Below, in pieces: positions 14,052-62,744 of a stretch of DNA of 64,000 bases. The notes beneath the pieces are model-generated. The model made no database searches, was not told the origin of the DNA, and worked only from the letters and a program-made list of their open reading frames with translations. Every line of letters begins with the position of its first letter. The stretch's first letter is position 1. Made by a program: the position numbers and the translations under genes. The stretch comes from Shewanella vesiculosa. GTDB lineage: Bacteria; Pseudomonadota; Gammaproteobacteria; Enterobacterales; Shewanellaceae. The stretch lies in the NCBI RefSeq assembly GCF_021560015.1, contig NZ_CP073588.1, forward strand, positions 4,200,501 through 4,264,500. The letters are read 5' to 3'.

Positions 14052-14883
14052 ATGCCTTCGCTGTTGTCTTTGTATCGAAAAATCCTATTTGGTCGTAAAC
14101 CGGGATGGGATCAACAACCGCTGCCGAATATTTATGTGCAAGCTTCTAATGTGGTGCTGTCGCAAGAGAAAATTCGGCAATATGCCGCTGTATGTGGTTT
14201 TGAATACGATGATAGGGTGTTACCTCCAACGTATTTATATGTGTGGGCATTTCGTTTGCATGCGATGATTTTTACTCATAAAGCCGTGACATTTCCGTTG
14301 CTTGGAATGATCCACTTAAAAAATAGTATTAGTGTATTTCGTCCTGTACGTACTGATGAAATATTGACTGTGCAGTGCGAACTGTCAGCGAGTCGCACTA
14401 CAGATGCTGGACTTGAGTTTGATTTAGTTTCAAAAGTGTTGGTTGGTGAAGAGCTTGTATGGCAAGCGTTATCAACATACTTATATCGCATTGAGTCTGC
14501 TGGGCGGCGGGCTCGTCCGCCTAAAGCGTCTGAGATGGCATGGGAAAATGTCCAGCAATGGCGTTTAACCGATGACTTAGGCCGTCGTTATGCCAAAGCT
14601 TCGGGCGATTATAACTTGATCCATTTGCATCCTTTATTGTCAAAACGCTTTGGTTTTGAGCGAGTGTTGGCCCATGGCATGTGGTCTAAAGCGCGTGCAT
14701 TATCTCAGTTGATGACTTATATCGGTGATCGACCTTCAGGTTGATGTTGAATTTAAATTACCGGTGTTTATGCCGTCTGAAGTGACATTTGCATTTGAAA
14801 GTACTGAGAATGGTAAACGTTTTCAAATACGTGATGTCAAAGGTCGTCGACCGCATTTGCAGGGTGATGTTACCTATTTATAA
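14052..14883 (+). CDS. MaoC-like (hot-dog fold) dehydratase family protein, frameshifted
   Basis: The first frame contains a hot-dog-type domain ending in a MaoC-type motif (YAKASGDYNLIHLHPLLSK, then FERVLAHGMWSKA). It then stops at 14744 after IGDRPSG. Another frame continues without a break as QVDVEFKLPVFMPSEV through RPHLQGDVTYL to TAA at 14881. Removing one base in CCTT near 14735 restores a single gene of about 276 residues. MaoC-like proteins hydrate or dehydrate acyl-thioesters. The Asp/His of the motif (GDYNLIH) are present. The start is uncertain: ATG 14052 is chosen, with GTG 14019 and TTG 13977 as alternatives. Confidence 0.65.
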
Positions 14884-14939
14884 GCAGATAGACCTCGCTG
14901 AGGTGGCTTAAACGTCAGTGGTAAGTCAATTGCGAACAT

Positions 14940-14972
14940 AAAAAAGCTCAGGTTAATACCTGAGCTTTTTTT
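14940..14972. terminator. Bidirectional terminator between MaoC-like and aldo/keto reductase genes
   Basis: AAAAAAGCTCAGGT and ACCTGAGCTTTTTTT form a stem with a TAAT loop. The A/T flanks give a T run in both directions. Confidence 0.85.
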
Positions 14973-14981
14973 ATGGCAGAC

Positions 14982-15872: not shown

Positions 15873-16021
15873 AAGTTAATTTTAACCTTAGTTAGGGGTA
15901 ATAAATGCTTATTAAAGCACTTTTAGATCGACATTGACTGAAAAGCAACTCGCTATCAAAAGCCAACGAATCTTAGCAAGACAGAACAAAATCACTGAGC
16001 CAGTGTTATTTTTACCTATTT

Positions 16022-16046
16022 ACCTCATCCGCTAAATGGATGAGGT
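16022..16046. repeat. Inverted repeat between minus-strand genes
   Basis: ACCTCATCC (16022-16030) pairs perfectly with GGATGAGGT (16038-16046) about 100 bases beyond the mscS-like stop codon. There is no T run on the minus strand, so it is possibly a weak terminator. Confidence 0.45.
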
Positions 16047-16143
16047 GAGTTAATCATTGTTGTAGCATACTTTGACACAATGTTTGACTACATTAGGCGA
16101 CATAGCATGCCATTGATTTAGCTTGATTAGCTTAAGCACTGGG

Positions 16144-17785
16144 TTATTTTTGATAAATATGTACATCGCGTTGTGGGAACGGAATACTAATGCCTTCAGC
16201 ATCAAAGCGTATTTTCACTGCACGAGTAATATCCCAGTAAACCTCCCAGTAATCATCAGGGTTAACCCAAGGCCTGACAACAAAGTCGACTGAAGATTCA
16301 CCTAATGTGTGCAGTTTTACAATTGGTTCTGGATGTTCTTGCACCTTAGGGTGTTGCTCAACAATACTTTTTAAAATGGTTTCAGCATGTTCAACATTGT
16401 CGCTGTAACTAATACCAAAAATCATGTCTACGCGGCGCTGATGCTCGGCAGTAATATTGTTAATGGTATCGCCCCAAATTTTATTGTTTGGCACAATCAA
16501 GCGTTGGTTATCGAGGGTTTTGATGGTTGTTGATACTAAGCTCATGTGACTCACACGACCGGTAACATTGGCTGCATTAATTAGATCACCGACATCAAAT
16601 GGACGATAGATTAAGATCATCATCCCAGATGCAAAGTTTGATAATGTGTCTTGTAATGCAAAACCAATAATCACACCGGCAATACCAAAGCCAGCGAGCA
16701 AAGGCCCAAGCTCAAACCCGAGCTGTGATAAGGCAATTAATAATCCTAATGCAAATACCACCTTACTGGACAACGAAATAAAGAAGTCTTGCAGTAATTG
16801 GCTAAATTGTAATTTTGATGCTTTTACTGTTTTCGAGATAATTTTGGTGACAATTTTGGCCACTAAACTGGCTAAAAATAAAATAAATACAAAGACTAAA
16901 ATTTTGAAGGTTAAGCTAGGACCATTATTAATGGTTTGATCTTTGATGACGTTAAGCCAGCCTTGCAGCAGATTAGACGCGACACTGAAGTTCAATACAT
17001 CTTGGGTAATATCACCAGACACGCTAAACAAGGTTTGTTTAAAAGCCGTGACATCTTGGCCTAGTGTTTCGAGCATTCCCGCTGATACAGCTAGGCTTGA
17101 GCTACTTTGATCTAAACGTTCTTTTAGTGCCATCACCTCTGCTTTTTGTTCGGCAGTGATATCGGCCCCAGCGCTTTCAGCTTCTGAAACGGCTTTTTGT
17201 AATTCATCTTGTGTGTAATGCACTAAACTGTCGAAATGGTCGGCGCGTTTGAGCATAAAATCGGTTAATTTCTGTTGTTGAATACTGACATCCATATTCA
17301 AGGTTTTAGCCCATTGCAGCGAGGTTAATTGTGCCTTGAGATAGTGGTCTCGTTCAAATTCTCGTTGTGATATAGCTAAGACAACCTTACTTTCATCACC
17401 TTGCTTGATATCAAGACGCATAAGCATAATTTGATCGTCTAAATAACTCCCGACACTGTTTAAAAAAATCCAGCTGACTTTGAACTAAAGTGATTAGGTA
17501 TTGCGGGTTTTCATCTGGAGTTTTGATCAGCTGCGCAATTATATCGCGTAATTCAGATGACTTGTTCTTAATCCTATATTCAGTAAAGTTACGTAATTCA
17601 CCTTTTGCCTTAAACAGTAGGAGGGTATCTTGATCAATTGTTTGTTGTAATCGGCTGATTTTATTTTGAGTGTCGGTTAACTGACTGGTGGTGACAATCG
17701 GTGCTGTTGCATCTTGTTCTGCGCTAGCTGTTGGCGACATAAACACCACTAAGGTGAATAATATCGTAAATAAAATCCGTAGCAT
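16144..17785 (-). CDS. MscS-family mechanosensitive channel with periplasmic N-terminal region, frameshifted
   Basis: The N-terminal part (signal peptide ending TASA, then a helical coiled region) is read from 17785, and the rest in another frame. Shortening the run of seven A at 17462-17468 by one joins them as LDFLNSVGSYLDDQIMLMRLD and gives one protein of about 546 residues. After a second helical region come membrane helices and the MscS core: the Gly/Ala-rich pore helix (LLAGFGIAGVIIGFALQDTLSNFASG), the beta domain (RPFDVGDLI) and an ending SIPFPQRDVHIYQK. MscS channels release solutes on osmotic down-shock. Confidence 0.82.
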
Positions 17786-17909: not shown

Positions 17910-18240
17910 ATGTCGCTGCAATGTGCTCATTGCTATAAATCTTTTTTCAATTGCGAAGGTCAATGACAGTCGTGGTAAAGGTTTGTCAGTTGAGGTGCAA
18001 TGCCCTCATTGTGCTGCATGGCTTGGGCATAACAAGTTGTTATCAATTGCTAAGATGTTTGGGTTTTATGGTGGCGTAGTTGCCGCGGTAGTTGGTTATT
18101 TTTTTGACAATGTAGCGTCGATCACCACGCCATTGATTATATTAGCGGTTATCATTGTTGGTTTATCGCATATTATGGACCATTTACAGCTGATCGAAGC
18201 CCCTGAAAATGATCCTAGTACAGAACCTGGTGCAAAATAG
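17910..18240 (+). CDS. Zinc-ribbon membrane protein, frameshifted
   Basis: ATG 17910 has AGGGA seven bases upstream and starts MSLQCAHCYKS. That frame soon stops, but the neighbouring frame continues to 18240. Shortening the run of six T (17942-17947 region) to five gives KSFSIAKVNDSRGKG and a single protein of about 109 residues. It has two Cys pairs (CAHC and CPHC), forming a zinc ribbon, then two hydrophobic helices (FYGGVVAAVVGYFF, TPLIILAVIIVGL). The function is unknown. It ends one base before the stop of the convergent 41-residue gene. Confidence 0.65.
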
Positions 18241-18241
18241 G

Positions 18242-30826: not shown

Positions 30827-32223
30827 ATGCAACAAGACGACAAAAAGTTGTTTGTACTGGATACCAACGTGTTACTGCATGAACCTTTAGCGATATATTC
30901 GTTTAAAGAACATGACGTAATTATTCCCATGACTGTGTTAGAAGAGCTCGACAGTATTAAGGACAGGAAGCGAGATGTGAGTCGTGATGCTCGGGTTGCC
31001 ATACGAGCATTAGAAGATATTTTGGGGGGGACCCACTACTCCGGAGCAAATTTTAAAAGGCGTTCCATTACCTTCACGCGAGGAGCATGCTGAGGTATCG
31101 GGGCATTTGTCGATTTTTCCTGATCATCAAATAGAATTTATTATCGGCTCACTCCCTGGCGATAATAACGATAACCGCATTATTAATACCGCGCTGCATT
31201 TACAAAAAACTTCATTTTCCCCGCACCGTAGTGCTCGTTACCAAAGACATTAACATGCGCTTAAAGGCCAAAGGCGCGGGTATTGAGCGAGTAGAAGATT
31301 ATCGTTCTGATCAATTGATTGATGATGTGCGCTTTCTTGCTAAAGGCTTTTACCAGTTCCCAGGTGATTTTTGGCAAAATATCGATAAAGTCTCTACCGA
31401 TCGCAAAGACCGCCATACTGTTCATCAAGTACCATTGGAGCATCTTGGTAATGAAAACTTTTATCTTAATCAGTATTTAATTGACGACAGTTCCGATTTT
31501 TGCGGCCGTGTTGCCAGTAAAACAGATCAATACCTAGAGATCATTGATCGTGGCCGCGATCGCTTATTGCATCATCAAGCTTGGGGGGTTAAACCGAAGA
31601 ATATTTATCAAGGCATGGCACTTGATGCCTTGCTGGATCCTGACATCGAACTGATTATTCTGACGGGGCCCGCTGGCTGCGGTAAAACACTATTAGCCAT
31701 GGCGGCAGCATTAGAGCTGGTGGTTGAGCGTAAACTTTACGACAAAATCATTGTAACTCGTAATACCCCCGAAATTGCTGAGTCGATAGGTTTTTTACCT
31801 GGCACCGAGGAAGAGAAGATGACTCCCTGGCTAGCCGCAATTACCGATACCTTAGAAGTGCTCCACAAAAATGATGTTAACCCTAGCGGCAGCGTGAACT
31901 ACATAATGGAAAAGGCCAACATTCAATTTAAGTCGATTAACTTTATGCGTGGTCGCTCGATTCAAAACTCAGTGGTCATTTTAGATGAATGCCAAAACCT
32001 CACCGCATCACAAATTAAGACCATGATCACCCGAATGGGTGAGGGTACTAAGCTGATCTGCAGTGGTAATTTAGCGCAAATAGATTCGACTTACTTAACC
32101 GCAGTGACGTCAGGCTTAACCTACATAGTCGAGCGTTTTAAAGACTTTGAAGGCAGCGCTAATATTTATCTCAATGGTGTGGTTCGTTCACGATTAGCTG
32201 AATTTGCTGAGGAGCATCTGTAG
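30827..32223 (+). CDS. PhoH-family ATPase with N-terminal PIN domain, two frameshifts
   Basis: Reading from ATG 30827 (GGAGG upstream) gives a PIN-domain start (FVLDTNVLLHEP, then VLEELDSIKDRKRDVSRDAR). Two one-base excesses interrupt it: the run of seven G at 31024-31030 and the run of six A at 31204-31209. Shortening each by one gives a continuous protein of about 464 residues. Its PhoH ATPase half has Walker A ILTGPAGCGKTLLAMA, Walker B VVILDECQN and GEGTKLICSGNLAQID. Such PIN-PhoH proteins are thought to be RNA helicase/nucleases. Acidic PIN residues are present. Confidence 0.85.
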
Positions 32224-32501: not shown

Positions 32502-35500
32502 ATGAAACCGACTGAGCCAGATTTACAACTAAAATCTCCTATTCAACGTAATTATAACCGAGCGGTGTTCTACACTTATATCGGGGTAATTGTGATGGCG
32601 TTACTGACGGCAGGCATTATGTTTGAACGTCAAAAAGAGCAGCAAATTCAACAGCGAGAAGAGCAGGTTGCCCGTCATGTTATGCAAATCGACTTATTGC
32701 TCGAGTCGAGTATTCGCGCAGTGAAAAGTTTACGTGATGTGGCTGTTGATCATTTACGCTTGGGTGAGTTTGTGCGTAAACAACGCTTACCAGAATATGA
32801 AAAGTTTAACGAAGATGGCCAGTATTTTACCTTAGAACCCAATTACGCTAACAGCGGCTTGCCATTTACTAACATGGGCAGGATTACTGGTGCGGGCTCA
32901 CTAGAAGGACGTAGTGAGAGCTTCTACCAAGAGTTGGAAATGCTGTTTGAGCTATCATTATCTTTCCCCGTTGCCAAAGAAGCAGCCCCTAAAGCCTCAT
33001 CAATTTATTATATTTCTAAACGTCGAATGATGTCATTTTACCCATGGGAAAGTAATGACTTACGCTTTAGAGATGAATTACTCAATAAGAAACAGTTTCA
33101 ATTATCGACCCCTTCAATGAACCCGCAACGCAGCGTATTTTGGAGTGAGGCCTACATTGACTCCGCCCACAAAGGCTTAATTACTACGCTAGGTTTACCG
33201 GTATATTTAGACGATGAGTTTATTGGTTCGATTAATTTAGACATGACCTTATCGTCGTTAGATAAGCAAATTCGTACTTACTTTAAAATGCCTGGTACGG
33301 TGATTTTGCTTGATCAGCAAAACAATATTTTATCTCACAGTGACTTTGATTCTAATGAGATGAATAAGGTTTATCACATTAGCCAGCGCATTCCGGCAGA
33401 GTTACATTCGTTGTCTGAATCTGAGTTATTTGATGCCCACGAAGGCATTTTACGTAACGGCTATTATATTCACAGCGTTGCACTGCATAACGCCCCATGG
33501 CGCTTGCTGTATTTGCAAGATGAAGATGATTTATTTAAAGATTCGTGGGACAAGCTGCAACTGAGCTTTTTGTTAGTGGTGCTGGCCCTGTCACTGCTGG
33601 TCACTATTGTGCATTGGCAAACGCGTCGTGCATTCGTTAGCCCAGCTTCACGCTTGCTCACACACTTGGAAGCGTGTTCTCAAACACCAATCAGACCGCC
33701 GGAAAAAATGACTCATGGCTGGGAGCCGTGGTTTGCACTGGTGAGCCGTATTTTTGAAGAAAACCGCCAATATACTCATCATCTAGCCGAACAAAATAAA
33801 CGCCTAGATAATTTAGTGGCGCGCCGAACTCAGCGTTTACGTGAAACGACTGAGCGCCGTGAACGTGAATTTGCACTACTGCGGTCATTAATCGACTCAA
33901 TCCCTGAAGCGATTGTGTTTAAAGACAAAGAAGGTAAATATTTAGGCTGTAACAAATCAGCAGAAAGAATGCTGGGTTACTGCGAAAATGAGATTATTGG
34001 CTTAACCTCATCAGAAGTGGTTAGCCCAGAGCAGGGCCAGCGTATTGGTGAGGAAGATAACAAAGTATTGACCCAACAGCATTCATTACGTTACCAAGAG
34101 CGGGTGAATATTGAAGGTAAACCAGTATTACTCGATACCTTTAAACTGCCATTTTATAATCGCCGTGGCGACCTATTAGGTTTGATTTCCGTTTGGCGTG
34201 ATATTACTCGTGAATACGAGGCAGCTGAACAATTGCGGATGTCTGAGCAACGTTATCATCTTGCTATGGATGCGGTAGAAGATGGATTGTGGGATTGGTA
34301 CATTGATTCGGAACAGATTATTTGTAACCCGGCCTTCTATTCGATGTTGGGTTATCAAGCCCATGAATTTCCGCCATTACTCGAATCAATCGATGAATTG
34401 TATCACCTGACGATCGTGACCGGGTGCAGGAATATCGCTCTCAGTATGTGCGTGATCCGGTTGGTACTTATGAAATTGAGTTCAGAATGCGCGGTAAAAA
34501 TGGCCAGTATTACTGGGTGTTATCCCGTGGTCGCGCCGTCGAATTTTCTGAGGACGGTTGCAGTAAGCGGATGCTCGGTACTCATAAAGACATTACTCGT
34601 CAGAAGAGTAACGAAGTGGCCTTGCTCGAAGCCAAACAAGATGCTGAATTGGCCAATATGTACAAAAGTGAGTTTTTGGCTAACATGAGTCATGAAATTC
34701 GCACGCCAATGAACGCGATTATTGGCATGCTGCAGTTGGCGCAACGGACTAATTTAACCCCGCAACAGCAAGATTACCTTCATAAAGCTGGTTTCTCAGC
34801 GCAGTCGTTACTGCGTATTATCAACGATATTCTAGATTTTTCTAAAATCGAAGCCGGTAAATTAGAGTTAGAAAGAGTCGCTTTCCCGCTGGATAAAGTG
34901 CTTGATCATGTTATTGATATTAATGCCATGAAAGCGCAAGAAAAAGGCGTTGAATTACTGCTGTATGCGCCTGTCACCGCAGGACTTATCCTGTACGGCG
35001 ATCCACTGCGTTTAGGCCAAGTCATCGTTAATTTATTATCTAATGCGGTTAAATTTACCCAAACGGGTGAAGTTGAGCTGGGTTGTGAAGATGTGGGTGA
35101 GCGTGACGATCGCATTACCATGAAGTTTTGGGTACGCGATACCGGTATTGGGATCAGTAAAGATCAACAAGCAATGCTGTTTGATGCCTTTTCACAAGCA
35201 GATGGTTCAACCACACGTAAATATGGTGGTACTGGTTTAGGTTTATCGATCAGTAAACATTTAGTGTCGATGATGGGCGGCACCATGCAAGTTGAGTCCG
35301 AGCTAGGATCGGGCAGTACCTTCAGTTTTACCATTAGCTTTGAAATTGCCGAAGAACAAGTCGTCGAGCCATTAGTGGTGCCAGAACAATTAAATAATCT
35401 CACTACACTGGTGGTTGATGACAATCCAAGTGCATTACAGATTTACTCTACATTAATGACAGATTTCAGCTTTGGAGTGAATACCGCCGATAGCGGCCAA

Positions 35501-36211
35501 AAGGCTCTGGAGATTTTACGTAAAAAGCCGGTCGATTTATTATTGCTAGATTGGATGATGCCAGAAATGAACGGTTGTGACGTGATTAAAGCCGTTGATC
35601 AAATGATTGAAGACGGCAGCTTAGAAAAACGTCCGATTATTATTTTAATGACAGCTTATGCCGCAGAACCATTAGACCATGAATTACAAAAAGATTCTGT
35701 TTATGCGGTATTACAAAAACCGTTCAAAGCTTCGGCCTTGTTTGATGAAATTATTAATGCTTTTGCCAAAGAGCCAAAGCTTAATGCTATGCCGGTCATT
35801 ATTGAAGCCGAACCTACTAAAGCATCCGGTTTAGTGCTATTGGTTGAAGATAACTTTATTAATCAACAAGTGGCATCTGAATTACTCAAAAGTGCCGGTT
35901 ATGAAGTGGTGATTGCCGATAATGGCCAAGTGGCGTTAGATGTGATCGATTCTAAGCCGTTTGATGCAGTGTTAATGGACATTCAAATGCCAATAATGGA
36001 TGGATTAACCGCTACCGCAGAATTACGCAAACGTTTTAGTAAAGAACAAATGCCGATTATTGCCATGACTGCCCATGCAATGTCCGGTGATAAAGAGAAA
36101 AGTTTAGCCGCAGGCATGAATGCCCATATCACTAAGCCAATTGTGCTTACTGAATTATTTGAAACCTTATCGCATTGGATTACATATAAACACAATCATC
36201 AAGACGAGTAG
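32502..36211 (+). CDS. Hybrid sensor histidine kinase (Cache-PAS-PAS-HisKA-HATPase-REC-REC), frameshifted
   Basis: A missing C in CACCTGAC (34404-34411) splits the gene. CACCCTGAC restores the PAS motif HPDDRDRVQEYR and a protein of about 1236 residues. In order: membrane helix near 35-55, periplasmic Cache-like sensor, second helix near 355, coiled coil, two PAS domains (LIDSIPEAIVFKDKEG; AVEDGLWDWYID), HisKA with NMSHEIRTPMNAIIGM, HATPase with GTGLGLSISKH, and two receivers (LLLLDWMMPEMNG; AVLMDIQMPIMDG), both with phospho-Asp. There is no HPt domain. Start ATG 32502 follows AGGGTGG. The metalloprotease gene follows after 39 bases. Confidence 0.88.
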
Positions 36212-36250: not shown

Positions 36251-38648
36251 ATGGTCCGCCGTAGTATTTCATTGGCACTGTTGCTGGCAATTACGCCAGC
36301 AACATTATTTTCTACAGCCGCAATAGCGGCTAGCGACTCAGCCCAAACAATAATCAACAATGCTGAGGCTGCAACAGGCTTTATCAATCTATTTTACGAT
36401 GCTAAATCCGCTGAGTTATACCTACAAGCAGATAAACTCAATCAACCCTTTTTTATTGCTGACCAGCTTACCTCATGGTGTGGGTTCCAATGATATTGGT
36501 TTAGATCGTGGCCAATTAGGCCAAACCCGCATGGTGCAATTTGAACAGCACGGCCCTTTCATTATTTTAAAGCAGCTTAATCCTAATTTTCGCGCCTCTA
36601 GTGATAATGTCGCTGAACGCCAAGCAGTTACACAAGCCTTTGCGGAGTCGATTTTATGGCGCGGTAAAGTTGTGGCAGGTAAAACGGCAATCGTTGCAAT
36701 TAATGACCTAGTGATTAATGATTTGCATGGTGTAGCTGATGTGTTGGCGGCAACCAATCAAGGCACCTATAGCTTAGACCGCAGCCGTTCCGTCATTTTA
36801 CCGCAAGGGATTAAATCGTTTGCACGTAATGCAGATGTTGATGTTAATTTAACCTTTACGGCTAGCAAAGCGGGTAAGCAAGTTGAGCAAGTCACTCCAG
36901 ACGGTAAAATGCTGTCTGTACGGGTGCGTTATTCATTTGTACAACTGCCAGAGGCCGGTTATCAAGCACGCAATTATCATCCTATGAGCGGTTATTTGTC
37001 TGATCAATATGCCGATTATTCTACTGCGGTTGATCAACCGCTGATACAACGTCATTTATTACGCCACCGATTACAGAAGGTCACGCCTGGGGATGCGCCT
37101 AGCAAAGTGGTTAAGCCCATTGTGTATTACCTTGATCCCGGTGTACCAGAGCCGATCCGCAGCGCCTTACTCGAAGGCGCCCGCTGGTGGGAAACGGCCT
37201 TTACTGACGCTGGCTTTATCGATGGTTTTAAGGTGGAATTACTGCCCGAAGGTGCTGACCCTCAAGATGTGCGTTATAACATGATCCAATGGGTACATCG
37301 CGCCACCCGAGGCTGGTCATATGGCGCAGCGGTTACCGATCCGCGAACGGGTGAAATTATTAAAGGTAATGTCACTTTAGGCAGTTTGAGAGTTCGCCAA
37401 GATCACCTCATCGCTAGGGGACTTATTGCTGGATGGCCAGATCGTAAAGCCGCCGCCGACGCGGCAATGGCATTATCACTTGCTCGTATTCGTCAGTTAG
37501 CCGCGCATGAGGTGGGCCATACTTTAGGACTGGATCATAACTTTGCCGCATCAACAAATGATGATGCCTCGGTGATGGATTATCCGCACCCATATGCCAG
37601 TATTCAAAACGATAAAATCGATATCGCCACCCCATATCGTGAAGGTATTGGTGAGTGGGATAAATACACCATAGCGTATGGTTATGGTGATATAAAACAA
37701 ACGGATGCATTGTTAACATCGACCTTGACTAAAGGTTTTCGTTATATTGGTGAAGCAGATTCTCGCAGTGTTAGCGCCAGTAATGCATATGCCAGTTTAT
37801 GGGATCGCGGTAACGATGCTGTTGCTGAGTTAGTGCGTTTAGAAACCGTGCGCCGTAAAGCGATTGACGATTTTAATTCAGATGCATTATTAGCCGATGA
37901 GCCCCATGGCGAATTAGCCGATGTGTTTGTGCCTATCTACTTGCTGACTCGTTATCAAATCGACGCCGCAGCGAAGTGGATCGGCGGAACAGATTACAGT
38001 TATCAACAAGTCGGCGCTGGTGTACGTTGGAATTATATTCGCCCTGAAATGCAATTTGCTGCACTCGATACCTTGTTGATGAGTTTGCAAACCAAGAGTT
38101 TATTAGTGCCGAGTAATGTGTTGCAAGCTTTGGTACCTAAAGCGGGAAACTATGCTAAAACCCGCGAAAGTTTTGGATCAAACTTAGGTGTGATTACTGA
38201 TCCCGCTGCGATGGCTGAAGTCATGAGCCGTCATGTTGTGACCCAACTATTAGCGCCAGAGCGTTTAAATCGAGTCAGTCAGGCCTATATGGGTGATAGT
38301 CAGCAGCTGTCGGTGGTTAAATTAGTTGATAAACTTGTTGGCGCAACCTTGTACCAAGATTTACCTAGTGGACAAGGCTTAGCAGAGCAAATGCGGGTGA
38401 ACACCGTGGTGATTGATGGCCTATTAGCGACGTATCATAATCCTAAAACAGCCCCTGAAGTGAAAGCCCAGTTGGCGGCAAGAGTTGATTATATTATCAA
38501 GCAGCTTAAACGCCGCAGTAATCGTGGTAGCGATTATCAATCAGCACATTATGATTGGTTATTTCAAGGGATAACCAAAGGGATGGATGACTCAAGTTAT
38601 CGACTCATTACTAAGCCTGTGGACATGCCACCTGGCTCGCCGATTTAA
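36251..38648 (+). CDS. Zinc-dependent metalloprotease (DUF5117/DUF4953 type), frameshifted
   Basis: The N-terminus (signal peptide ATLFSTAAIAASD) and the rest are in different frames. Shortening the run of six T at 36449-36454 to five gives NQPFLLLTSLPHGVGSNDIG and one protein of about 798 residues. The active site is HEVGHTLGLDHNF, the HExxHxxGxxH zinc site of metzincins, followed by a Met-turn-like SVMDYPHPYA. The upstream PITYYLDPG-like stretch (IVYYLDPGVPEPIR) is typical of this secreted family. The substrate is unknown. Start: ATG 36251 with AAGGAG. It sits 39 bases after the sensor kinase, so the two are probably co-transcribed. Confidence 0.85.
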
Positions 38649-42119: not shown

Positions 42120-42248
42120 CTATGGACACAAATCGATTTCAGCGTCGGCATAAATTGCCGCAAAATGTGCCAGCTCACGGACCGAGTCTAGCTGTACAGG
42201 TAGAGTAAGAGCATAACTAAGGCCAAACCAAGGGTTAATAGTAACAGG
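42120..42248 (-). other. Start-less open stretch, possible gene remnant
   Basis: The minus strand reads 42 codons with coding-like composition and then TAG (42122-42120). It includes VQLDSVRELAHFAAIYADAE followed by IDLCP. It has no start codon and a stop immediately upstream. The sequence weakly recalls HPr-like small proteins. It may be the decayed end of a gene, or chance. Confidence 0.2.
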
Positions 42249-42300
42249 CTAAGTCAGCTATTTTCTGTAGGCTACCACATGAATAATCAAAGGATCCGCA

Positions 42301-43434: not shown

Positions 43435-43552
43435 CCGCCGGCAAAACTTTTGTTTTTTACGGGTAATATCAATATAAAGTAAAAAAATTGACCCTTCATC
43501 CAGTAGTTACTCGTATAAATGTAGAATAAGAATTAAGGGAACGTGTTCCACG

Positions 43553-45715: not shown

Positions 45716-46820
45716 TAAGCGCCTCAATTTCCTCAGCAATCAATTTGTGGTCTACCAGTTGTTCAAACCAACTGGTGGCCACAATATCGCTTTGCAATCC
45801 AAGCAAGGTTCCCAGCACTATGCCGCGATGTACGTTGTCGCCGCCTAAGTTAGTATTCACTCGCAGTGCTTGCCAAGGATCATGTTGGTATTTACAGGCC
45901 AGATACAAGACCACAGGCCAAGAATCTGAAATATAACATGCCCTTGAAAACACTTGGCCGACGACCTGATTGTCGGGCACGTTACGTTTTAACAGGCCAG
46001 CTAAATGAGTACTCGTTAAGCCTTTACTTGCTTCAAGTAAAAGTGCTTTCGCGCTGGCCTCATCGGGCCCTTCCATCAGAGCACACAAGAGTTGTACGTA
46101 GCTATCACACACCTGCATTAAGGATTCATCAGGATGGGTTAAGGCCAGATGCGCTCGGCAGGTAATCTTTATTTCGGCTTCGCTTATGCCCTTAAGTCGT
46201 TCTGAAAACACCAAAGGCGCTATGGTCACCAATGCACCAATGGATGCGGTGTCGTGAGTTATCATGCCACAATTTTCAGGCTTGCGTCCCTGTGCCAAGT
46301 TAGCAAAAAATCCTCTATGGTAGGACTCTGCATAAGTATCGGGATGAGCGGCGGGAGTCATTGTCATAAAGTCAATATAGTCATTAACAAATGCTTGTCG
46401 GTCGTAGCGTTGTGGCGTACTCGCCAGAGTGCGCATCAGTACGCGAGCGCAATGGGCGTTAAGGGTATTTTCTCCCGCCTGCATGCCTTGATGATAATGC
46501 ACATTCGGTCTGTCCCAAAACTGCGCCTTATCTTTTAAAATAATATCGCCTATTACTTGCGGCGGCTGATCGTGAGCTGCATGTCCCTTAGACGACCGAT
46601 CATTGGATTGTCGCCCTCCTTTGTGTTTTGAGTGCAATGACATAATAGATGAAGGGTGAAACTCAGGTGCAGCTTCAAAGCGCTGAATACCACCAGTAAA
46701 AGCACGCTCGATTTCCATTGGTTGATAATACCAATGCACTGGCATGGCTAAAGCATCAGCAATAAAGCTTGTTTTAAGTGCCCAGGTAACGCGAAGTGGC
46801 TGAGAAGAGTTGTGATTCAT
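45687..46820 (-). CDS. ADP-ribosylglycohydrolase (DraG) family protein
   Basis: About 377 residues starting at ATG 46820 (AGAGGC seven bases upstream; the frame is open to 46901 but has no ribosome site there). Family segments are IADALAMPVHWYY at the N-terminus, HDTASIGALVTIAPLVF in the middle, and NTNLGGDNVHRGIVLGTLLG, the Asp-rich metal site, near the C-terminus. DraG-like enzymes remove ADP-ribose from proteins or small molecules using two Mg2+. The target is unknown. It overlaps the 3' end of ovoA tail to tail and is preceded by an 11-base tandem repeat. Confidence 0.82.
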   Translation of the reverse strand: MNHNSSQPLRVTWALKTSFIADALAMPVHWYYQPMEIERAFTGGIQRFEAAPEFHPSSIMSLHSKHKGGRQSNDRSSKGHAAHDQPPQVIGDIILKDKAQFWDRPNVHYHQGMQAGENTLNAHCARVLMRTLASTPQRYDRQAFVNDYIDFMTMTPAAHPDTYAESYHRGFFANLAQGRKPENCGMITHDTASIGALVTIAPLVFSERLKGISEAEIKITCRAHLALTHPDESLMQVCDSYVQLLCALMEGPDEASAKALLLEASKGLTSTHLAGLLKRNVPDNQVVGQVFSRACYISDSWPVVLYLACKYQHDPWQALRVNTNLGGDNVHRGIVLGTLLGLQSDIVATSWFEQLVDHKLIAEEIEALISVASAPKP

Positions 46821-46877
46821 GGTAATGCCTCTTTCACATGGTATAAAAGCACTCGCATCTAGATTAGATACAGCAAC

Positions 46878-46930
46878 AATGGATAACCAATGGATAACCA
46901 ATGGATAACCAATGGGTAACCAATGGATAA
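46878..46930. repeat. 11-base tandem repeat, about 4.8 copies, before the DraG-like gene
   Basis: AATGGATAACC is repeated at 46878, 46889, 46900 and 46911 (one G for A), with a partial copy at 46922. The period is close to one turn of DNA. The array lies 58 bases upstream of the DraG-family start codon on the minus strand. Confidence 0.9.
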
Positions 46931-47280
46931 TTTTTACGATGTGAATATTGATTAAAAACGTCTGTGTTTATATTTGATACGTGATTTATACAAAACTAGA
47001 CGTTTTTTTAAGGCAATAGGTTAAATTTATTTCGTAAGCATAATCTTCACCCCGACAAGTACAACCGCTTTTTGAGTGTGTGGAAGATATAGAGGACGTA
47101 ACAGATTATGTACAGCAATCTATGATGATATATCTGTTGATTCGGCTTTTGCTTCGGGGCTAAACCATTGCTGCTAAAAGATGAAAGGTTTATTTTTGAT
47201 ATCCTGCTTGTTTATAGTTTACCCAATTATCTGTACTGATATACTCAGCTTTATCTCAATTGTTACCATAATGTGTGCCA
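46931..47280. other. Gene-free region between DraG-like and nhaC-like genes
   Basis: 350 bases with no supported gene on either strand. It must hold the nhaC-like promoter. I cannot identify it confidently. Confidence 0.45.
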
Positions 47281-48693
47281 ATGTCTGTAATCACTCTCAA
47301 CTTACCCCGTAGCCCTAGTTTTTTGCAGTCTCTTATCTGTTTTAGCGTGATTATCATCACCATTGCAGGTGGGCTTTTTGGTCTAGGGATCAGCCTGCAT
47401 ACATTGATGTTCCTGTGTCTGTTGTGGGTAGGACTCAACGCTTTTAGTCTTGGTTACGGCTATATACATATACGTGAGTTGATGACTAACGCCCTCACCA
47501 GAGCCATGCCTGCCATCTATATATTTATATTGATCGGCATGGTGATTGCCAGTTTTATGCACAGTGGAACCATCGCCACGCTGATTTATTATGGCCTTAG
47601 TTGGCTGAGTCCGAGTTTGTTTCTGGCTGTCGGTTTATTACTGTGCGCCTTGATGTCGCTAGCAACTGGAACATCTTGGGGTACCGTCGGCACCTTAGGC
47701 GTGGTTTTTATTGGCATTGGTTCTGCCATGAATATTCCCCTGCCTTTGGTTGCAGGTATGATTGTCTGCGGTGCCACCTTCGGTGATAAAATGTCGCCGA
47801 TTTCAGATACCACAAACCTCGCCGCTATGAGTGCTGGCACCGATCTTTATCGACATATTTATGCCATGCTGTTCACCACAACGCCGACCTTTATCCTCAC
47901 TTTCTTAATATTTTTAGTGATCGGATTGAACTATGGCGAGCAAAATATAGACTTGGCAGAGGTCACTTCAATTCAAACAGCACTTGCTAACAATTACAGC
48001 CTTACGCCGCTGATCACCTTATTACCCCTGATTTTACTCGCGGTACTGAGCATTAAAAAAGTGCCCGCTGAAGTGACTATGTCATGCAGTATTATACTTG
48101 CTGTGTTAATTGCGATTTTTTATCAGCAACAAAGTGCTATCTCTGTGCTAAATGCGCTGTGGGAAAATACGCCCGAATCAACCGGTATTGCCAGTTTAGA
48201 TGCTTTGCTTGGTCGCGGTGGCATTAGCAGCATGAGCTGGACCTTACTGCTGGCGTTAATGGCTATCGCGCTAGGCGGAATTTTGCACGGCGCGGGATTT
48301 CTCAGCGCACTATTGGCCGGTATTATAAAAAGAGTGCAGCGCACCGCCACCCTTATTGCGACGACGATTATGTCCGGCTTCTTAGGTAACATTGCTATGG
48401 GTGAGGCTTATATTTCGATTATTCTAAGTTGCCAACTGTTTAAGCCCAAATATGAGCAACAAAATGTAGAGGCAGCCATTCTTTCGCGCTCAGTAGAAGA
48501 AGGGGCCACTATGACCACAGGCCTTATTCCGTGGACCACGGCCGGTGCCTTTTATACTGCCACTCTAGGGGTAAACGTACTTGACTACGCACCCTATGCT
48601 TTTTTCAACTACCTTAATGCCATCATAGCAGTGGCAATGGCCGCCTTTGGCATTGGTCTTCTCAAACCGAAAACCAAACCTGCGCTGACGTAA
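47281..48693 (+). CDS. NhaC-type Na+/H+ antiporter family protein
   Basis: 470 residues with about eleven hydrophobic helices. Family landmarks are SLATGTSWGTVGTLGVVFIG, ATFGDKMSPISDTTNLAA and the C-terminal VEEGATMTTGLIPWTTAGAF. Members exchange Na+ for H+ or organic substrates (malate/lactate relatives exist), so the cargo is not certain. ATG 47281 is chosen over GTG 47275. Neither has a clear ribosome site. It stands next to the ovothiol genes but on its own transcript. Confidence 0.83.
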   Translation: MSVITLNLPRSPSFLQSLICFSVIIITIAGGLFGLGISLHTLMFLCLLWVGLNAFSLGYGYIHIRELMTNALTRAMPAIYIFILIGMVIASFMHSGTIATLIYYGLSWLSPSLFLAVGLLLCALMSLATGTSWGTVGTLGVVFIGIGSAMNIPLPLVAGMIVCGATFGDKMSPISDTTNLAAMSAGTDLYRHIYAMLFTTTPTFILTFLIFLVIGLNYGEQNIDLAEVTSIQTALANNYSLTPLITLLPLILLAVLSIKKVPAEVTMSCSIILAVLIAIFYQQQSAISVLNALWENTPESTGIASLDALLGRGGISSMSWTLLLALMAIALGGILHGAGFLSALLAGIIKRVQRTATLIATTIMSGFLGNIAMGEAYISIILSCQLFKPKYEQQNVEAAILSRSVEEGATMTTGLIPWTTAGAFYTATLGVNVLDYAPYAFFNYLNAIIAVAMAAFGIGLLKPKTKPALT

Positions 48694-49174
48694 AGGAGAT
48701 TAATCTTATATCAGTGAGTAGGGCTTTTAGGGTTAATACTGTAAATCTGGTCAATGCTTGAGTTGAATCGACCGCTGGGGTGTTTAACATGTATTGTAGA
48801 GAATATGGATTATTCCTCTTAAGCGTCACAGTGGCCTTTTTAATATAAAAGGCCTATTTTACGTTTGAAATATACAGGCTAAATAGTCAAACTCAGTTAA
48901 CGTTAAGGGTGAGTTGTCTTACCTCTCTAGTTGTTTGCCCACTGTTTTAATGATGTTCACATACCCAATAAAATGACGTTAATCCATAACCGAAGAGTTA
49001 AATATTAGCGTTCAATAAGCTTAATTAGCGTCACAATGCTAATTTTATCTCTGTCTTTCGTGCGGTTTTATGCATCCAACTTAACTCAATAAAGCCTAAA
49101 ATATCCTCTGTTAAACACAAGTTTGATTTTGCATAATATGGATATTTTATAATGTTTATTTTTAATGCTACTAG
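48694..49174. other. Gene-free stretch after the antiporter gene
   Basis: 481 bases. It contains a hairpin (listed separately) and three scattered ATTAGCGT/ATGCTAAT-like words near 48999-49044. I see no supported coding frame. Confidence 0.45.
48833..48860 (+). terminator. Possible terminator
   Basis: GGCCTTTT (48833-48840) pairs with AAAAGGCC (48847-48854) and is followed by TATTTTACG. It is about 140 bases after the nhaC-like stop. Confidence 0.5.
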
Positions 49175-49880: not shown

Positions 49881-50247
49881 TTAGTCGTGGCTTAAATTGA
49901 TGATAGAAGCAAAACCCTTAACTAAGCATCACCTTGTGTCATTCGAGTGATGAATGAACTTATTTATGGTTTTTAGCGAATGAATAAATGAATAAATGAG
50001 TGATTAAATATGAATGTAAGCGCATAACTGAGGGCACTTTTAGTTGCAAGTTTAGGCGCTATCACACTTACATCATGATGATTTTTGTATAGTGCTAAGT
50101 CACTCATGAGCCTCTGTGTATTTATATTGGACTAAAGTGTCGACTATCTTGTTGATATACATAGAAGTGTCTATGAGTATAATCGCCAAATAGCCAGTAA
50201 AAATCATTTTAATCAATTCACCTAAATTGAGTAGGACAGCTATCCCC
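49881..50247. other. Upstream region of the nucleoside hydrolase gene
   Basis: 367 bases without a supported gene. A minus-strand open frame overlapping the nucleoside hydrolase start (50351-50100) is a shadow with no ribosome site. There is a run of short A/T-rich near-repeats (GAATGAATAAATGAATAAATGAG) near 49980, quoted here only in part: GAATGAATAAATG. Confidence 0.4.
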
Positions 50248-51231
50248 ATGATAACTAAAATTATATTAGACACAGATCCCGGTATTGATGATGTATTTGC
50301 GATTCTATTTGCCCAAGCGCATCCAGCAATTGAACTAAAAGCGATCACCACGGTTTATGGCAATGTGACCATTGAAAATGCGACCCATAATGCGCTTTAT
50401 CTTAAGCAAAAATATCAGTTACAGGCTGATATTGTCACAGGTGCGAGTAAACCTATCGTACGATCTCCGCTAGGACCTACAGTAGTTGTTCATGGCGAAG
50501 GTGGTTTTGGTGATGTCATGGTTCCTTCTGAGGTCGAGGGGCAAGCGGATCCTCGTCCTGCATATCAATATATTATCGATACAGTAAAAGCCGAGCCAGG
50601 TGAAATTACCTTGGTAGCTATCGGTCCGTTAACTAACCTTGCACTCGCGCTTCAGGCTGATCCCACGATTGTTGATTTAGTTAAACAAGTGGTCATCATG
50701 GGTGGGGCCTTTGGTGAGAACAATCACAGTGGCAATGTGACTCCATTTGCTGAAGCCAATATTCATGATGACCCTCATGCGGCTGATATGGTTTTAACCG
50801 CCTCTTGGCCTGTGGTAGTGATTGGTTTAGATGTCACCGAGCAAAGTTTCTTTACCTGAGAGTATCTTGATAAGTTGCGCGATGATGCTGGTGAGCTAGG
50901 TCAGTTTATTTGGGATATTAGCCGGTTCTATTTACGGTTTTACAGTGAAAAAGTTGGCCTCGAGGCTTGCCATGTACACGATCCATCAGCGATTGCCTAT
51001 GTGATTAATCCAGCGCTTTTTACTCTCAGAGAAGGGCCAATACGGGTCGTGACCGATGGAGTCGCTGAAGGAATGACTATTCAGAAATTAGATAGCCGTG
51101 TGTATCTGCATGATGAATGGATGAGTAAGCCCTCACAAAAGGTTGGTGTTGCAGTAAAAAATCTCGAGTTGTTGGAGTTATACCGCAGCAGTATCATCGA
51201 ATATGCCGCACGCTTGAAACCATCCAGTTAG
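50248..51231 (+). CDS. Inosine/uridine-preferring nucleoside hydrolase, interrupted by an in-frame TGA
   Basis: Reads in one frame for about 327 codons apart from TGA at 50857-50859, between SFFT and EYLDKLRDD. Family signatures before the stop are LDTDPGIDDVFAI (calcium-binding Asp cluster), GNVTIENATHNAL, AIGPLTNLALALQ and GNVTPFAEANIHDDPHAA. After it come the C-terminal CHVHDPSAIAYV His/Asp pair. It hydrolyses ribonucleosides to base and ribose. No run-length change fixes this stop, so it is a substitution: either a true nonsense mutation or an error. If real, the active-site His/Asp after the stop would be lost. Confidence 0.8.
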
Positions 51232-51461: not shown

Positions 51462-52294
51462 CTAGCGCTGTAAATGAATTTCCTTCACAGGACAAGGGAT
51501 AGTAATGTTGCTGCCGTTAGCGCCTTCATAATGGCTAAGTTAGTGTGATATTTTTCTTCATAGTAACGTTGTGTTGGCACCCAATAGCGTACGCCAATCT
51601 CAATACCGATAGCATTAAAGCCATTAATGCCGACCAAGGGTTTCTTTTCTTGATAAATCGCAGGTGAGGCGGCTAGTACAGCGTTTATTAATTGGATAAT
51701 GTGATCGGCATCGGCTTGATAATCAATATTGAATTTATTCTCAACCAGCTTATAAGCGAATGAGTTATGTAAAATCTCGCCAATAATATGTTTGTTGGGG
51801 ATGCTGATCTGCTCACCTTCTTCATTCGTTAAAATGGTTTGGCCTAATTTTATTGTCTCAACAACACCACTAACATCCTTAATTTCAATGGTGTTGCCCA
51901 CCACAAAAGGGCGGGTAACAATAATCGTAACGCCAGCAGCATAATTAGCTAGCATGCCCTGTAATGCCAAGCCTGCACCTAGAGATGCGGCACCAATTGC
52001 AGCCACCATAGGTGTTACGCTAATTCCCAGTTTGCCTAAACAAATTACCGCGACCATTACGATAATGATTATTCTGACTAAGTTTGAGGCAAAATTACTG
52101 AGGGTGATATCAATGTTATGTTTTTGCAGTTGAGCGGCGACTATGCTGGCAGCTTTACTGGCAAGCCAAAGCCCCAATAAGAAAATAATAATTGCGCCTG
52201 CGATTTGAAAACTATATTCAATGACAAACTCAGTGATGAGGCTATAAACATTTTGCAGTTGTTGGAGCTCTTGATCTAAACTGGGTTCGTTCAT
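51462..52294 (-). CDS. mscS: Small-conductance mechanosensitive channel (MscS), frameshifted near the C-terminus
   Basis: About 278 residues when a missing base near 51523 (CC for CCC on the plus strand) is restored. The tail then reads NGSNITIPCPVKEIHLQR instead of stopping as TAATLLSLVL. It has three N-terminal helices, the MscS pore helix AAIGAASLGAGLALQGMLANYAAG, then RPFVVGNTIEI and ISIPNKHIIGEILHN of the beta domain. This is close to E. coli MscS in size and layout, so it is probably an osmotic safety valve. Confidence 0.82.
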
Positions 52295-52648
52295 TTAATG
52301 TTCCTTATTGAAGATCATTGAGTTGATATCAACCTAGATAATAACAACTTTTCATACTCAGGGCTAAATCTGAGGCGAGTGTAAAAGCCATCATAGTGAA
52401 ATATTTTACTGGCTTCATGCGCATTATCCTCACGAATGACTATACTTTTAGGCACAAAAGCGAATCAATTATGCGGATAAGTGGGTTGGCAATTTAGACA
52501 TTTTGATTAAATTGCTTTAAAGAATAAAAAACTACACTTCCTGCATAAAAATTCGTTGCGTAATGATTAGAAATATCGTTTACTGCGCATGTTTTTACAC
52601 AATAGCATTGACACTTTTTTCGCCCAACTAACAGGAGGCACTGGCCTA
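52295..52648. other. Divergent intergenic region mscS / decarboxylase
   Basis: 354 bases, no supported gene. It contains a perfect 12-base palindrome GTTGATATCAAC at 52321-52332, close to the mscS start. AGGAGG near 52632 belongs to the decarboxylase gene. Confidence 0.45.
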
Positions 52649-53822
52649 ATGAGCCAATTTCAATCGATTGATGTTGCAGATTATTATGACAAGGACACGT
52701 TTGACCGCATTAAGGCATTTGCTGAAGATAAGCCAACGCCATTTGTCGTTATTGACACCCAAATCGTTGCGAAACAATACGATGATATGGTTACCAATTT
52801 TCCTTTCGCAAATATTTATTATGCGGTTAAGGCAAATCCGGCCAAAGAGATTTTAACTTTATTGCGAGATAAAGGTTCAAACTTTGATATTGCATCCATT
52901 TATGAACTTGAAATGGTGACGTCGATAGGCGTTTCTACTGATCGTGTTAGCTACGGCAACACTATTAAGAAACGTGTAGATGTTCGCTCTTTCTATAAGC
53001 AAGGCGTTCGTATGTTCGCTTCAGATTCTGAAGCTGATTTACGTATGATTGCTGAAGAAGCCCCAGGTTCAAAAGTATATGTACGTATTTTAACTGAAGG
53101 TACCCACACCGCTGACTGGCCTTTATCGCGTAAGTTTGGTTGCCAAAATGAAATGGCTTATGACTTATTAGTGTTAGCAAAAGAGTTAGGCTTACAACCC
53201 CATGGTATTTCGTTCCATGTAGGCTCACAACAACGTGATATCGGTGCGTGGGATTCTGCTATCGGCAAAGTAAAAAGTATTTATGACCGTTTAAAAGAAG
53301 AACATGGCATCGTACTTAAAATGATTAACTTAGGTGGTGGTTTTCCTGCTAACTACATGGATAAAACTAATGAGTTAGGCATTTATGCACAGCAGATAAA
53401 GCATTTCCTAGAAGATTTTGGTGATGAATTGCCTGAAATCATTTTAGAACCGGGTCGTTCATTACTTTCAAATGCCGGCGTATTGGTGTCTGAAGTGGTC
53501 TTGATTTCTCGTAAGTCGCACACCGCTTTAGAGCGTTGGGTATTTACTGATGTGGGTAAATTCTCTGGTTTAATTGAAACCATGGACGAAGCCATTAAAT
53601 TCCCTATCTACACTGACCGCAGAGGGGGAGTTAGATAAGTGTGTGATTGCCGGACCAACCTGTGATAGCGCTGATATTATGTACGAGCATTACAGTTATG
53701 GTTTACCGGTTGATCTTGCTATTGGTGACCGCATGTATTGGTTAACTGCAGGTGCTTACACCACCACATACTCGGCAGTCTGTTTTAACGGTTTTCCGCC
53801 ACTTAAAGATTATTACCTTTAA
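52649..53822 (+). CDS. Type III PLP-dependent ornithine/lysine decarboxylase, frameshifted
   Basis: About 390 residues once the run of five G at 53624-53628 is shortened to four, joining IYTDRRG to ELDKCVIAGPTCDSADI. The alanine-racemase-like fold holds the PLP Lys61 in YYAVKANP, then HVGSQ, NLGGGFP, EPGRS and the catalytic Cys in GPTCDSAD, which lies after the shift. The enzyme makes putrescine or cadaverine. The sequence does not settle substrate choice. ATG 52649 is chosen because AGGAGG lies 11 bases before it. It ends at a terminator. Confidence 0.88.
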
Positions 53823-59190: not shown

Positions 59191-59227
59191 ATGGCTTATT
59201 ACATATTACCGTGAGTTGTTTAGTACT

Positions 59228-60106
59228 CTAATTCGCTGTCATCTCGGTAAACAAATGTTCGCAAAAGGCTTTGGCCACAGAAGATTGAGGGCTTTTGGTG
59301 GAGTATACCAAGCTGATATCAGCAAAGCCGATGCTGTGTTGCGGTAAAATGTTAATTAATTGCCCCAGCTCGACAGCTTCATCCGCGATAACGTGTGGCA
59401 ACAATGCGATACCCGCTCCCGCTAAACAGAAGTGATACAGGGAGTTAAAATCACTGCAAATAACTTTGTAGTGCGTGGGCACATTAGCGTGTTGAAAATG
59501 CCAAGTTTGCTCAAGTTGGCCATGGGCATCTCTAAAGCCCAATAAAGAGTGGTATTGCAGATCATCGGTATTCTCTATCAGTGATGATTTTTCTAAATAA
59601 CCTGGGCTAGCATAGATTTTACGCTCGAAGGTTGTCAGTTTATGAACCGCAAGGTTGGCCCCATTGACCTCATTAGCATCAATAATCACATCGAGTCCCA
59701 AGCGATTGAGCTCTTTGCTGCCACCGGAGACAATTAATACTTCTAATTGCACTTGCGGATAAGCATGAATGAAACGAGCGATATATTTATCCATAAGCTT
59801 GTCGACAAACGGCAGTAAGCCAATGCGCAACTTGCCTTGCACTTCATCATGACGATGTTTGAACACATAACCAGCATGATTTAATTGATTTACTAAAGGT
59901 TCGATTTGAGCAAGGTATTGCCGACCCGCGGTGGTTAAAGTCATTACTCTTGTGGTGCGGGTAAATAAAGGTGCCCCGAGCTGTTTTTCTATTTCCCCAA
60001 TACGACGACTGACTAATGCTCTGCGAGTATCAAAAGATTTTGCAGCTTTAGAAAAACTGCCTAACTTTGCTACCGCAATGAATAACTCTAAATCTTTGAT
60101 ATCCAA
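59228..60106 (-). CDS. LysR-family transcriptional regulator
   Basis: 292 residues: N-terminal winged helix-turn-helix (DLELFIAVAKLGSFSKAAKSF, cut to AVAKLGSFSKAAKSF; RRIGEIEKQLGAPLFTRTTR) and a C-terminal effector-binding domain with the usual GAGIALLPHVIADEAV near the end. The recognition helix differs from most relatives (DTRRALVSRRI). The target and inducer are unknown. LysR genes are usually divergent from a target, but the next gene on the far side is uvrD, about 450 bases away, which is unlikely to be regulated. Confidence 0.9.
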   Translation of the reverse strand: MDIKDLELFIAVAKLGSFSKAAKSFDTRRALVSRRIGEIEKQLGAPLFTRTTRVMTLTTAGRQYLAQIEPLVNQLNHAGYVFKHRHDEVQGKLRIGLLPFVDKLMDKYIARFIHAYPQVQLEVLIVSGGSKELNRLGLDVIIDANEVNGANLAVHKLTTFERKIYASPGYLEKSSLIENTDDLQYHSLLGFRDAHGQLEQTWHFQHANVPTHYKVICSDFNSLYHFCLAGAGIALLPHVIADEAVELGQLINILPQHSIGFADISLVYSTKSPQSSVAKAFCEHLFTEMTAN

Positions 60107-60554
60107 TATGACAACCTATACAGCGCATGCTGTGGGTAATAAATGCATTTTTAATCGGCTTGAGTATTAACAAGAATAGTAAACAGGTTACTTAAAATAA
60201 TTGGTCCTAAACAAGCACAATTACCCAGCTTATTTACCACAAGTATAAAAAATCAATCTACTGTTTTTAGTCATCTATTTAGTGCGTTTTAGCAACTATC
60301 AGAGCTATTGGCTAATACTAAAATTAATTAACACCTTTATTTGTATAGTAATTTTCGCTTACGACTTTGTCAATTTAGGCCTCATTGTCGCAGTTAAACA
60401 TCACAACCCGATGATTTTAGTGGCTTTGATATTACTCCGCTGACTAGATTATCTCAGCCAGAGCAGTGAATTGTTGTTATAAAATAGCTGAAGTATTGCA
60501 CGCCATTAAGCCGCTATTTAAGATATAATGTCCCGCAGATTTCTGGGAGGAAGA
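60107..60554. other. Divergent intergenic region LysR / uvrD
   Basis: 448 bases, A/T-rich, no supported gene. It presumably contains the uvrD promoter. I see no LexA box of the CTGT-N8-ACAG type. Confidence 0.45.
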
Positions 60555-62744
60555 ATGGACGTATCATCATTATTAGACGGCCTAAACGATAAGCAGCGTG
60601 AGGCAGTCGGCGCGCCACTTTCAAATATGTTGGTGTTAGCGGGTGCCGGTAGCGGTAAAACCCGTGTATTAACTCATCGTATTGCGTGGTTAATGCAAGT
60701 AGAACAACAAAGTCCATATTCTATTTTGGCAGTGACCTTTACCAATAAAGCCGCGGCAGAAATGCGTGAACGGGTTGAAAAGGTTGTGGGCACAAATATG
60801 GGGCGCATGTGGATAGGTACATTCCACGGTTTAGCTCACCGCCTACTTCGCACTCACTATCAAGATGCTAATTTACCGCAAAGCTTTCAGATTATCGATT
60901 CAGACGATCAGTTGCGTTTATTAAAACGTATTCTTAAAAGCCTTAATTTAGATGAGAAGCAATATCCTCCTCGTCAGGCCCAAGGCTATATTAACGGTAA
61001 AAAAGACCAAGGTTTACGCCCTAAGCATATTGATGCGGGTGGTTTTCCGATTGAACAAAATTTACTGAATATTTATAAGGTTTACCAAGAGTCTTGCGAT
61101 CGCGCGGGCTTGGTCGACTTTGCTGAAATTTTATTGCGTGCTCACGAGTTATGGCTCAATAAGCCACACTTACTGGCCCATTACCAAGAGCGCTTCCGTC
61201 ATATTTTAGTCGATGAGTTTCAAGATACTAACGCGATTCAATATGCGTGGATCCGGGTGTTAGCCGGTAATACTGCCAATGTGATGATAGTTGGTGATGA
61301 CGATCAGTCTATTTACGGCTGGCGTGGTGCGCAAATAGAAAACTTACATCGTTTCTTAAAAGATTTTTCCGGTGCGACTACCATTCGTTTAGAGCAAAAT
61401 TATCGTTCAACCGCGAATATTTTGAATGCTTCTAACGCGGTTATCTCTAATAACCCTGACCGTCTGGGCAAAGAGTTATGGACTGAAGATAAAGATGGTG
61501 AGCCGATTTCGGTTTATTGCGCCTTTAATGAGATGGATGAAGCCAAGTTTATTGTCGGTCGCATTAGCGACTGGCATGACAAAGGCGGTAGTTTGAGCGA
61601 ATGCGCTATTTTATATCGTTCAAATGCGCAATCGCGGGTATTAGAAGAGGCTTTTTACACAAAGGGTTAGCGTACCGTATTTACGGTGGTTTACGCTTTT
61701 TCGAGCGCCAAGAAATTAAAGATGCGATGGGCTATATGCGTCTGATTAATAACCAAAATGATGATGCGGCATTTGAGCGTGTGGTGAATACCCCAGCTCG
61801 TGGTATCGGCGATCGTACTTTGGATATTATACGCTCAACCGCAAGACAGCATGAGCTGACTCTGTGGCAAGCTTGCGTGAGTTTAATTGAAGAAAAGGTC
61901 CTTGCTGGACGTGCGGCTAATGCCATCAATGGCTTTATGGAACTGATTATTGCAATGCGCACGGATACGGCAGATATGTTGCTGTACCGTATGGCAGATA
62001 GCGTGATTGATCGTTCTGGCTTGCGTACCATGTACGAGGCTGAAAAAGGCGAGAAAGCCCAAGCGCGAATTGAAAACTTAAATGAATTAGTCACAGCCGC
62101 GCGCAGTTTCGAAATGCCTGAAGAGCTTGAAGACATGGGCGAGTTAAATGCCTTCTTGTCTCATGCTGCATTAGAAGCTGGCGAAGGTCAGGCTGACGCC
62201 TTTACCGATGCTGTTCAGTTAATGACTTTGCATTCTGCTAAAGGACTTGAGTTCCCAATGGTGTTTATGGCGGGCGTTGAAGAAGGATTATTCCCGAGCA
62301 AGATGGCGTTAGACGAAGGCGATCGTTTAGATGAAGAACGCCGTTTGTGTTATGTCGGTATGACCCGTGCCATGCAAAAACTGTATATCAGTTATGCTGA
62401 ATCTCGTCGTATTTACGGTCGTGAAGATTATGCCAGCCCATCGCGGTTCATTAATGAGATTCCTGAAAAGTTTGTTGAACAAATTCGCATTCGTGCGCAG
62501 GTCACGCCATCAATTAGTCAGCGTTTCCCTGCTCGTGCAGCAGCGGTTACTGTAACTAAAAAACCTCATGGTTTTAATGATACAGGCCATAAAGTGGGTT
62601 CTAAAGTGAAGCACTTTAAGTTTGGCGAAGGGGTTGTGACTAGCTTTGAAGGTTCTGGTGAAAAAAGGCCGTGTACAAGTTAATTTTGTCGATTTTGGCA
62701 GTAAATGGCTGTTAGTGTCATTAGCAAAATTAGAGCGTTGTTAA
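60555..62744 (+). CDS. uvrD: DNA helicase II UvrD, two frameshifts
   Basis: About 729 residues after two corrections: the run of five T at 61652-61656 needs one more (restores [16 protein letters not shown]), and the run of six A at 62661-62666 needs one fewer (restores [20 protein letters not shown] to the true end). Superfamily 1 motifs are [73 protein letters not shown] and VGMTRAM. UvrD unwinds DNA in mismatch and nucleotide-excision repair. ATG 60555 follows GGGAGGA. The gene is essential for repair in the family, so decay is unlikely. Confidence 0.93.

Follow-up and report, generated by a model that had tools for sequence, protein, structure and literature searches.

How can a single stretch of a one-contig Shewanella vesiculosa genome contain so many broken genes? 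The stretch analysed here (64,000 nucleotides, hereafter the window) comprises bases 4,200,501-4,264,500 of a genome of 4,782,877 bases that is estimated to be 99.97% complete. A first-pass annotation, made from the letters of the window, had listed at least eleven single-base frameshifts, almost all in homopolymers, and had attributed them to homopolymer sequencing error as opposed to gene decay. Comparison with related genomes leads us to regard the breaks as most probably residual base-calling or consensus errors in the deposited record, a reading to which we assign a probability of about 0.97; the sequencing and assembly process is the cause that we infer.

Relatives of the same genus were picked by means of the uvrD stretch, for which 60 genomes were drawn. 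The nearest of the 60, G025, has 91% DNA identity over uvrD and is followed by G044, G055, G051 and G035. Placing the open frames of nine relatives on the window yielded 51 gene clusters, each containing two or more relatives; nine of these were antisense shadows and were left out before multi-relative alignment, and 42 were kept. The window genes that carry lesions are listed here, with frame changes as net changes in the record:

13977..14880, plus strand: MaoC-like dehydratase gene (Pfam MaoC_dehydratas on the G025 ortholog); break near 14735, net -2, outside a long run.
16147..17785, minus strand: MscS-type mechanosensitive channel gene (Pfam MS_channel_2nd/3rd on the G044 ortholog); break near 17469, net +1, in A7 on the plus strand.
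17910..18240, plus strand: small gene, 109 aa in G025; break in T6 at 17942-17947, net +1.
30827..32223, plus strand: phoH gene (PIN and PhoH, Pfam); breaks at 31024-31030 (G7, net +1) and near 31210 (net +1, beside A6).
32502..36211, plus strand: hybrid sensor kinase gene (PAS, HisKA, HATPase and receiver, Pfam); break near 34406, net -1.
36251..38648, plus strand: Met-zincin metalloprotease gene (DUF4953/DUF5117, Pfam); break in T6 near 36449, net +1.
50227..51231, plus strand: inosine-uridine nucleoside hydrolase gene (Pfam IU_nuc_hydro on both halves); in-frame TGA at 50857-50859.
51485..52294, minus strand: second MscS-type channel gene (Pfam); break near 51509, close to the 3' end, net -1.
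52589..53822, plus strand: Orn/Arg/DAP-type pyridoxal decarboxylase gene (Pfam); break near 53622 in G5, net +1.
60528..62744, plus strand: uvrD helicase gene (Pfam); breaks near 61652 (T5, net -1) and 62666 (A6, net +1).

Alignment with the relatives revealed an altered frame at all eleven of the sites first listed; seven of the changes are net +1, three are -1 and one is -2. At ten of them (14735, 17469, 31024, 31210, 34406, 36449, 51509, 53622, 61652 and 62666) a frame-changing gap separates the window from every aligned relative (42 genes, 43,885 bp, three to seven relatives for each broken gene), and at the eleventh, the T6 of the small gene, the frame change is seen against G025, G044 and G055. 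Indels private to one assembly and absent from close relatives are what homopolymer error should leave behind, and all eleven sites are of this kind; the proposed alignment to related Shewanella genomes has borne out the original suspicion, the aligned relatives lacking the indels of the window. The description of the lesions as single-base fails at 14735, where two bases are missing on balance, and their placement almost entirely in homopolymers proved somewhat too strong: runs of at least five bases occur at eight of the eleven sites, the exceptions being 14735, 34406 and 51509. Four more gap sites appeared in the 42-gene alignment, each against one relative and at the edge of a gene.

Two of the positions required correction. 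The break that had been put at 51523 in the second mscS gene, as a base missing from CC, is indeed a net -1 break but lies near 51509, where A3 has become A2 on the gene strand. Similarly, the second phoH lesion, assigned to an A6 run at 31206, is a net +1, but the A6 (31206-31210) is no longer than in G025, G044, G055 and the draft genome of Shewanella sp. SG41-4 (which matches the kinase segment at 96% protein identity), and the extra base directly adjoins the run. For the 109-aa gene, initially read as a zinc-ribbon protein, no Pfam match was found at E 1e-5. Searching a database for a close intact copy of the MaoC piece gave a best identity of 91%. The metalloprotease has four full-length database counterparts of 798 residues each (source undisclosed), 98-99% identical; over residues 57-798 they match the piece after the break at 98.4-98.5%, and the alignment of the piece before the break, which covers residues 1-78 and extends past the break, gives 87-88%. 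UvrD has a full-length match in 57 of the 60 Shewanella genomes surveyed (the record's own included in the 60) at a cut-off of E 1e-250, and ten of these 57 matches have one stop listed inside the matched stretch. The exceptions at this strict cut-off are the own genome (residues 1-382), G035 (residues 273-736) and G054 (no match). Both G035 (at G035:C1:4058523-4059914) and G054 are, like the present record, one-contig Shewanella genomes, and they may have similar quality problems.

Although the eleven listed sites stand, one lesion had been missed. The nucleoside hydrolase gene contains an in-frame TGA at 50857-50859, where G025, G035 and G044 read through; it is not a run-length error, and may be an erroneous substitution or a genuine lesion. 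In total, 22 in-frame stops were called, this one included, 18 of them no further than codon 34 of the relative's frame. We consider it unlikely, at roughly the level of an outside chance, that a few real strain-specific losses lie among the many false breaks; if so, this TGA and the mscS break at 51509 would be the most plausible candidates.

The extent of the problem was assessed in a second region of 400 kb, about 0.76 Mb from the window, set against the corresponding 400 kb of G025. A simple gap count, which had given 33 events for the window and 266 for the second region, was replaced by a caller of persistent frame changes, because the count contained many paired compensating gaps and gaps at gene edges. 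With this caller the window gave 11 calls in nine of 47 genes, ten of them kept in eight genes, and the second region gave 49 calls in 40 of 298 genes, with 43 breaks kept in 36 genes. Seven of the 60 calls were left out before counting. Four fell below 75% identity, and one of the four in addition extended over 60-118 bases; two others extended over stretches of 24-39 bases, and the last, of net +7, lay close to the start of a window gene. The 53 breaks that were kept do not include the T6 site at 17942.

As a control, G025, G044 and G055 were compared among themselves over the window region, which yielded three calls in 173 gene comparisons (one in 43, two in 43, none in 44 and none in 43); in all three the first aligned segment is no longer than 73 nt. 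The breaks called in the window are more than chance produces. This control covers the window region only. It was adopted because the reverse scan, in which open frames of the record are placed on G025, is not independent. Indeed, the reverse scan mostly re-found the record's own sites through out-of-frame tails, and a reading of the contexts assigned to such sites 19 of its 30 calls in the second region and five of six in the window. Of the other 11 calls in the second region, one crosses a large gap; in each of the remaining ten, one aligned segment is no longer than 92 nt, and two of the ten concern open frames that lie within rRNA operons. An earlier reverse scan by protein pieces had picked out five own frames from 317 in the second region, and two from 51 in the window.

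That the breaks reach well past the window is strongly supported, and the first-pass annotation understated their scale. On average, the second region has a break every 7.0 kb and the window one every 5.1 kb; each of the ten 40 kb bins of the second region holds 1 to 10 breaks, with none empty. Together, the two regions contain 53 kept breaks in 353 kb of aligned gene sequence, or about one per 6.7 kb, affecting 44 of 345 genes. Extrapolated with an assumed 85% of coding sequence from these two regions (about 464 kb of 4.78 Mb), the genome-wide number of false breaks is estimated at around 600.

The kept breaks comprise 35 of +1, 11 of -1, five of -2 and two of +2. For the 35 net +1 calls the rate climbs with the length of the run as read: in A/T runs, from 1 of 2,778 at length four through 4 of 978 at five and 5 of 341 at six to 8 of 73 at seven; in G/C runs, from 3 of 87 at length five to 6 of 16 at six. 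Deletions, on the other hand, occur mostly outside long runs. Homopolymer miscounting alone falls short of explaining all cases, because three of the 11 window breaks and most deletions elsewhere lie outside long runs. It is established that slippage mutations, too, favor long runs, and both uvrD and rep are broken in this record. One could therefore envisage a mutator lineage, in which loss of the mismatch and excision repair helicase encoded by uvrD raised slippage in runs and genes subsequently decayed. We judge this to be very improbable, in view of the genes that are hit.

A search of NCBIfam with the G025 orthologs of 20 of the 40 broken genes returned matches at E 1e-20 for 18 and none for two. 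The broken genes named in this way include rpoC, rpsL, rplD, ftsX, ilvC, argG, acetylornithine deacetylase, aroK, moaA and rep. Three of them, rpoC, rpsL and rplD, are essential genes. Throughout the record's own genome, rpoC (net -1) and rpsL (net +1) each exist solely as two pieces in different frames, and in G025 and G044 each is one open frame. The change in rplD is net +2, yet both protein pieces are 100% identical to G025. A mutator, or decay into pseudogenes, should spare essential genes, whose essentiality is established knowledge; here they are not spared, and such lesions would be lethal.

RNA genes are affected likewise, as would be expected of errors that are indifferent to gene function. 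In the first rRNA operon, identified by Rfam SSU and LSU rRNA, two G5 runs of the 16S gene each carry an extra base when set against the two G025 copies, and the 23S gene has lost one base in each of five G runs that are intact in its other own copy and in the G025 pair. The other own 23S copy (of which 700 bases of its slice, and its 16S, read N) has its own -1 elsewhere. One 23S loss is common to both own copies and is either systematic or real. Differing lesions in the two operons, at positions where other copies agree, are the pattern of independent reading errors; the different indels of the two 23S copies, and the hits at rRNA positions identical in the two G025 copies, hits that would by established knowledge be lethal, argue further against a mutator. 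Among 11 tRNA genes in the second region, the two that differ in length from G025 were compared: an extra A is present in a tRNA-Tyr gene, and one G is missing from a neighboring tRNA gene. Beside tRNA-Gly, at L154:14978-15052, both genomes have what ARAGORN calls a tRNA-Ile (anticodon aat), and the own copy lacks one base; gene order points to a threonine tRNA, and we presume that the ARAGORN name is doubtful.

A correct genome whose proteins are restored by programmed frameshifting or by transcriptional slippage at runs is scarcely credible. RNA polymerase can slip at A or T runs of 6-9 bases, and several of the sites are runs of this type; nevertheless, indels in rRNA and tRNA genes are beyond repair by translation, the extra base in phoH is missing in seven relatives, and the breaks also include G/C runs and deletions outside runs. 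Moreover, programmed frameshifting predicts a shift site conserved among relatives, and the sites are not common to the aligned relatives.

Selection in the broken genes was evaluated against G025. Per-site divergence is 0.129 in intact genes, 0.130 before the first break and 0.137 after it, and the share of substitutions at third codon positions is 0.766, 0.774 and 0.798, respectively. Constraint beyond the breaks is as strong as in intact genes, which fits there being no break in the organism, although very recent mutations would give the same picture. The relaxed selection after a break that a mutator or pseudogenes would entail is not seen, with the same reservation that very recent events could look the same. 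Ordinary recent pseudogenes in a declining genome could explain any single window gene, since relatives have intact copies, but as a general account they have next to no plausibility when gene sequence is broken about every 6.7 kb, with essential genes among those broken, a substitution pattern still constrained after breaks and, in the case of the metalloprotease, intact copies that are 98-99% identical.

The breaks are best viewed as a consensus-quality artefact and not as gene decay or the work of a mutator, because no cell could live with these sequences. Such an artefact would mainly have added bases in the reading of runs of some four or more identical bases, with an occasional loss of one or two bases, mostly outside long runs; the true genes would be intact in the organism. 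The initial attribution to homopolymer sequencing error and not gene decay is upheld by the dependence on run length, by the essential, rRNA and tRNA genes that are hit and by purifying selection after breaks.

This kind of artefact is already known. The complete genome of Vibrio cholerae LMA3984-4 is reported to have 196 frameshifts and that of Advenella kashmirensis WT001, in a similar situation, 925; the authors suspected sequence errors behind many of the frameshifts that they met, close relatives being intact (PMC6403173). The present record resembles these two in having many frameshifts across a deposited complete genome with RNA polymerase subunit genes touched. The organisms differ, and rRNA operons, run-length dependence and selection after breaks were also examined here. 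Kastor addresses gene-fragmenting errors of long-read assemblies (PMC12007338), and Homopolish describes residual errors that are mainly indels in homopolymers (PMC8011154). These errors, like the present ones, split genes and inflate pseudogene counts; unlike the present record, the assemblies concerned come from a known platform (PMC12007338, PMC8011154).

The consequences extend to users of the record, which represents its species in the genome set searched (one genome per species). In automatic annotation, essential genes would be labelled as pseudogenes or as split; the record would also mislead studies of gene loss, pseudogenes, mutator status and rRNA variation. The completeness score of 99.97% gave no warning of this, whereas comparison with the open frames of one relative did.

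Two further observations concern the arrangement of the genome. Positions 42242-48799 of the window (about 6.6 kb) have 91% DNA identity to G025, compared with about 81-86% in the adjoining blocks; the genes there encode an aminotransferase, an FGE-sulfatase/methyltransferase fusion, an ADP-ribosylglycohydrolase and a member of a Na+/H+ antiporter family, and the interval holds no gene cluster with two or more relatives. Finally, the start of the record's contig (G000:C1) may not be the usual origin, as the interval from uvrD to rep maps across the ends of the G025 contig, which we take to start at the origin.
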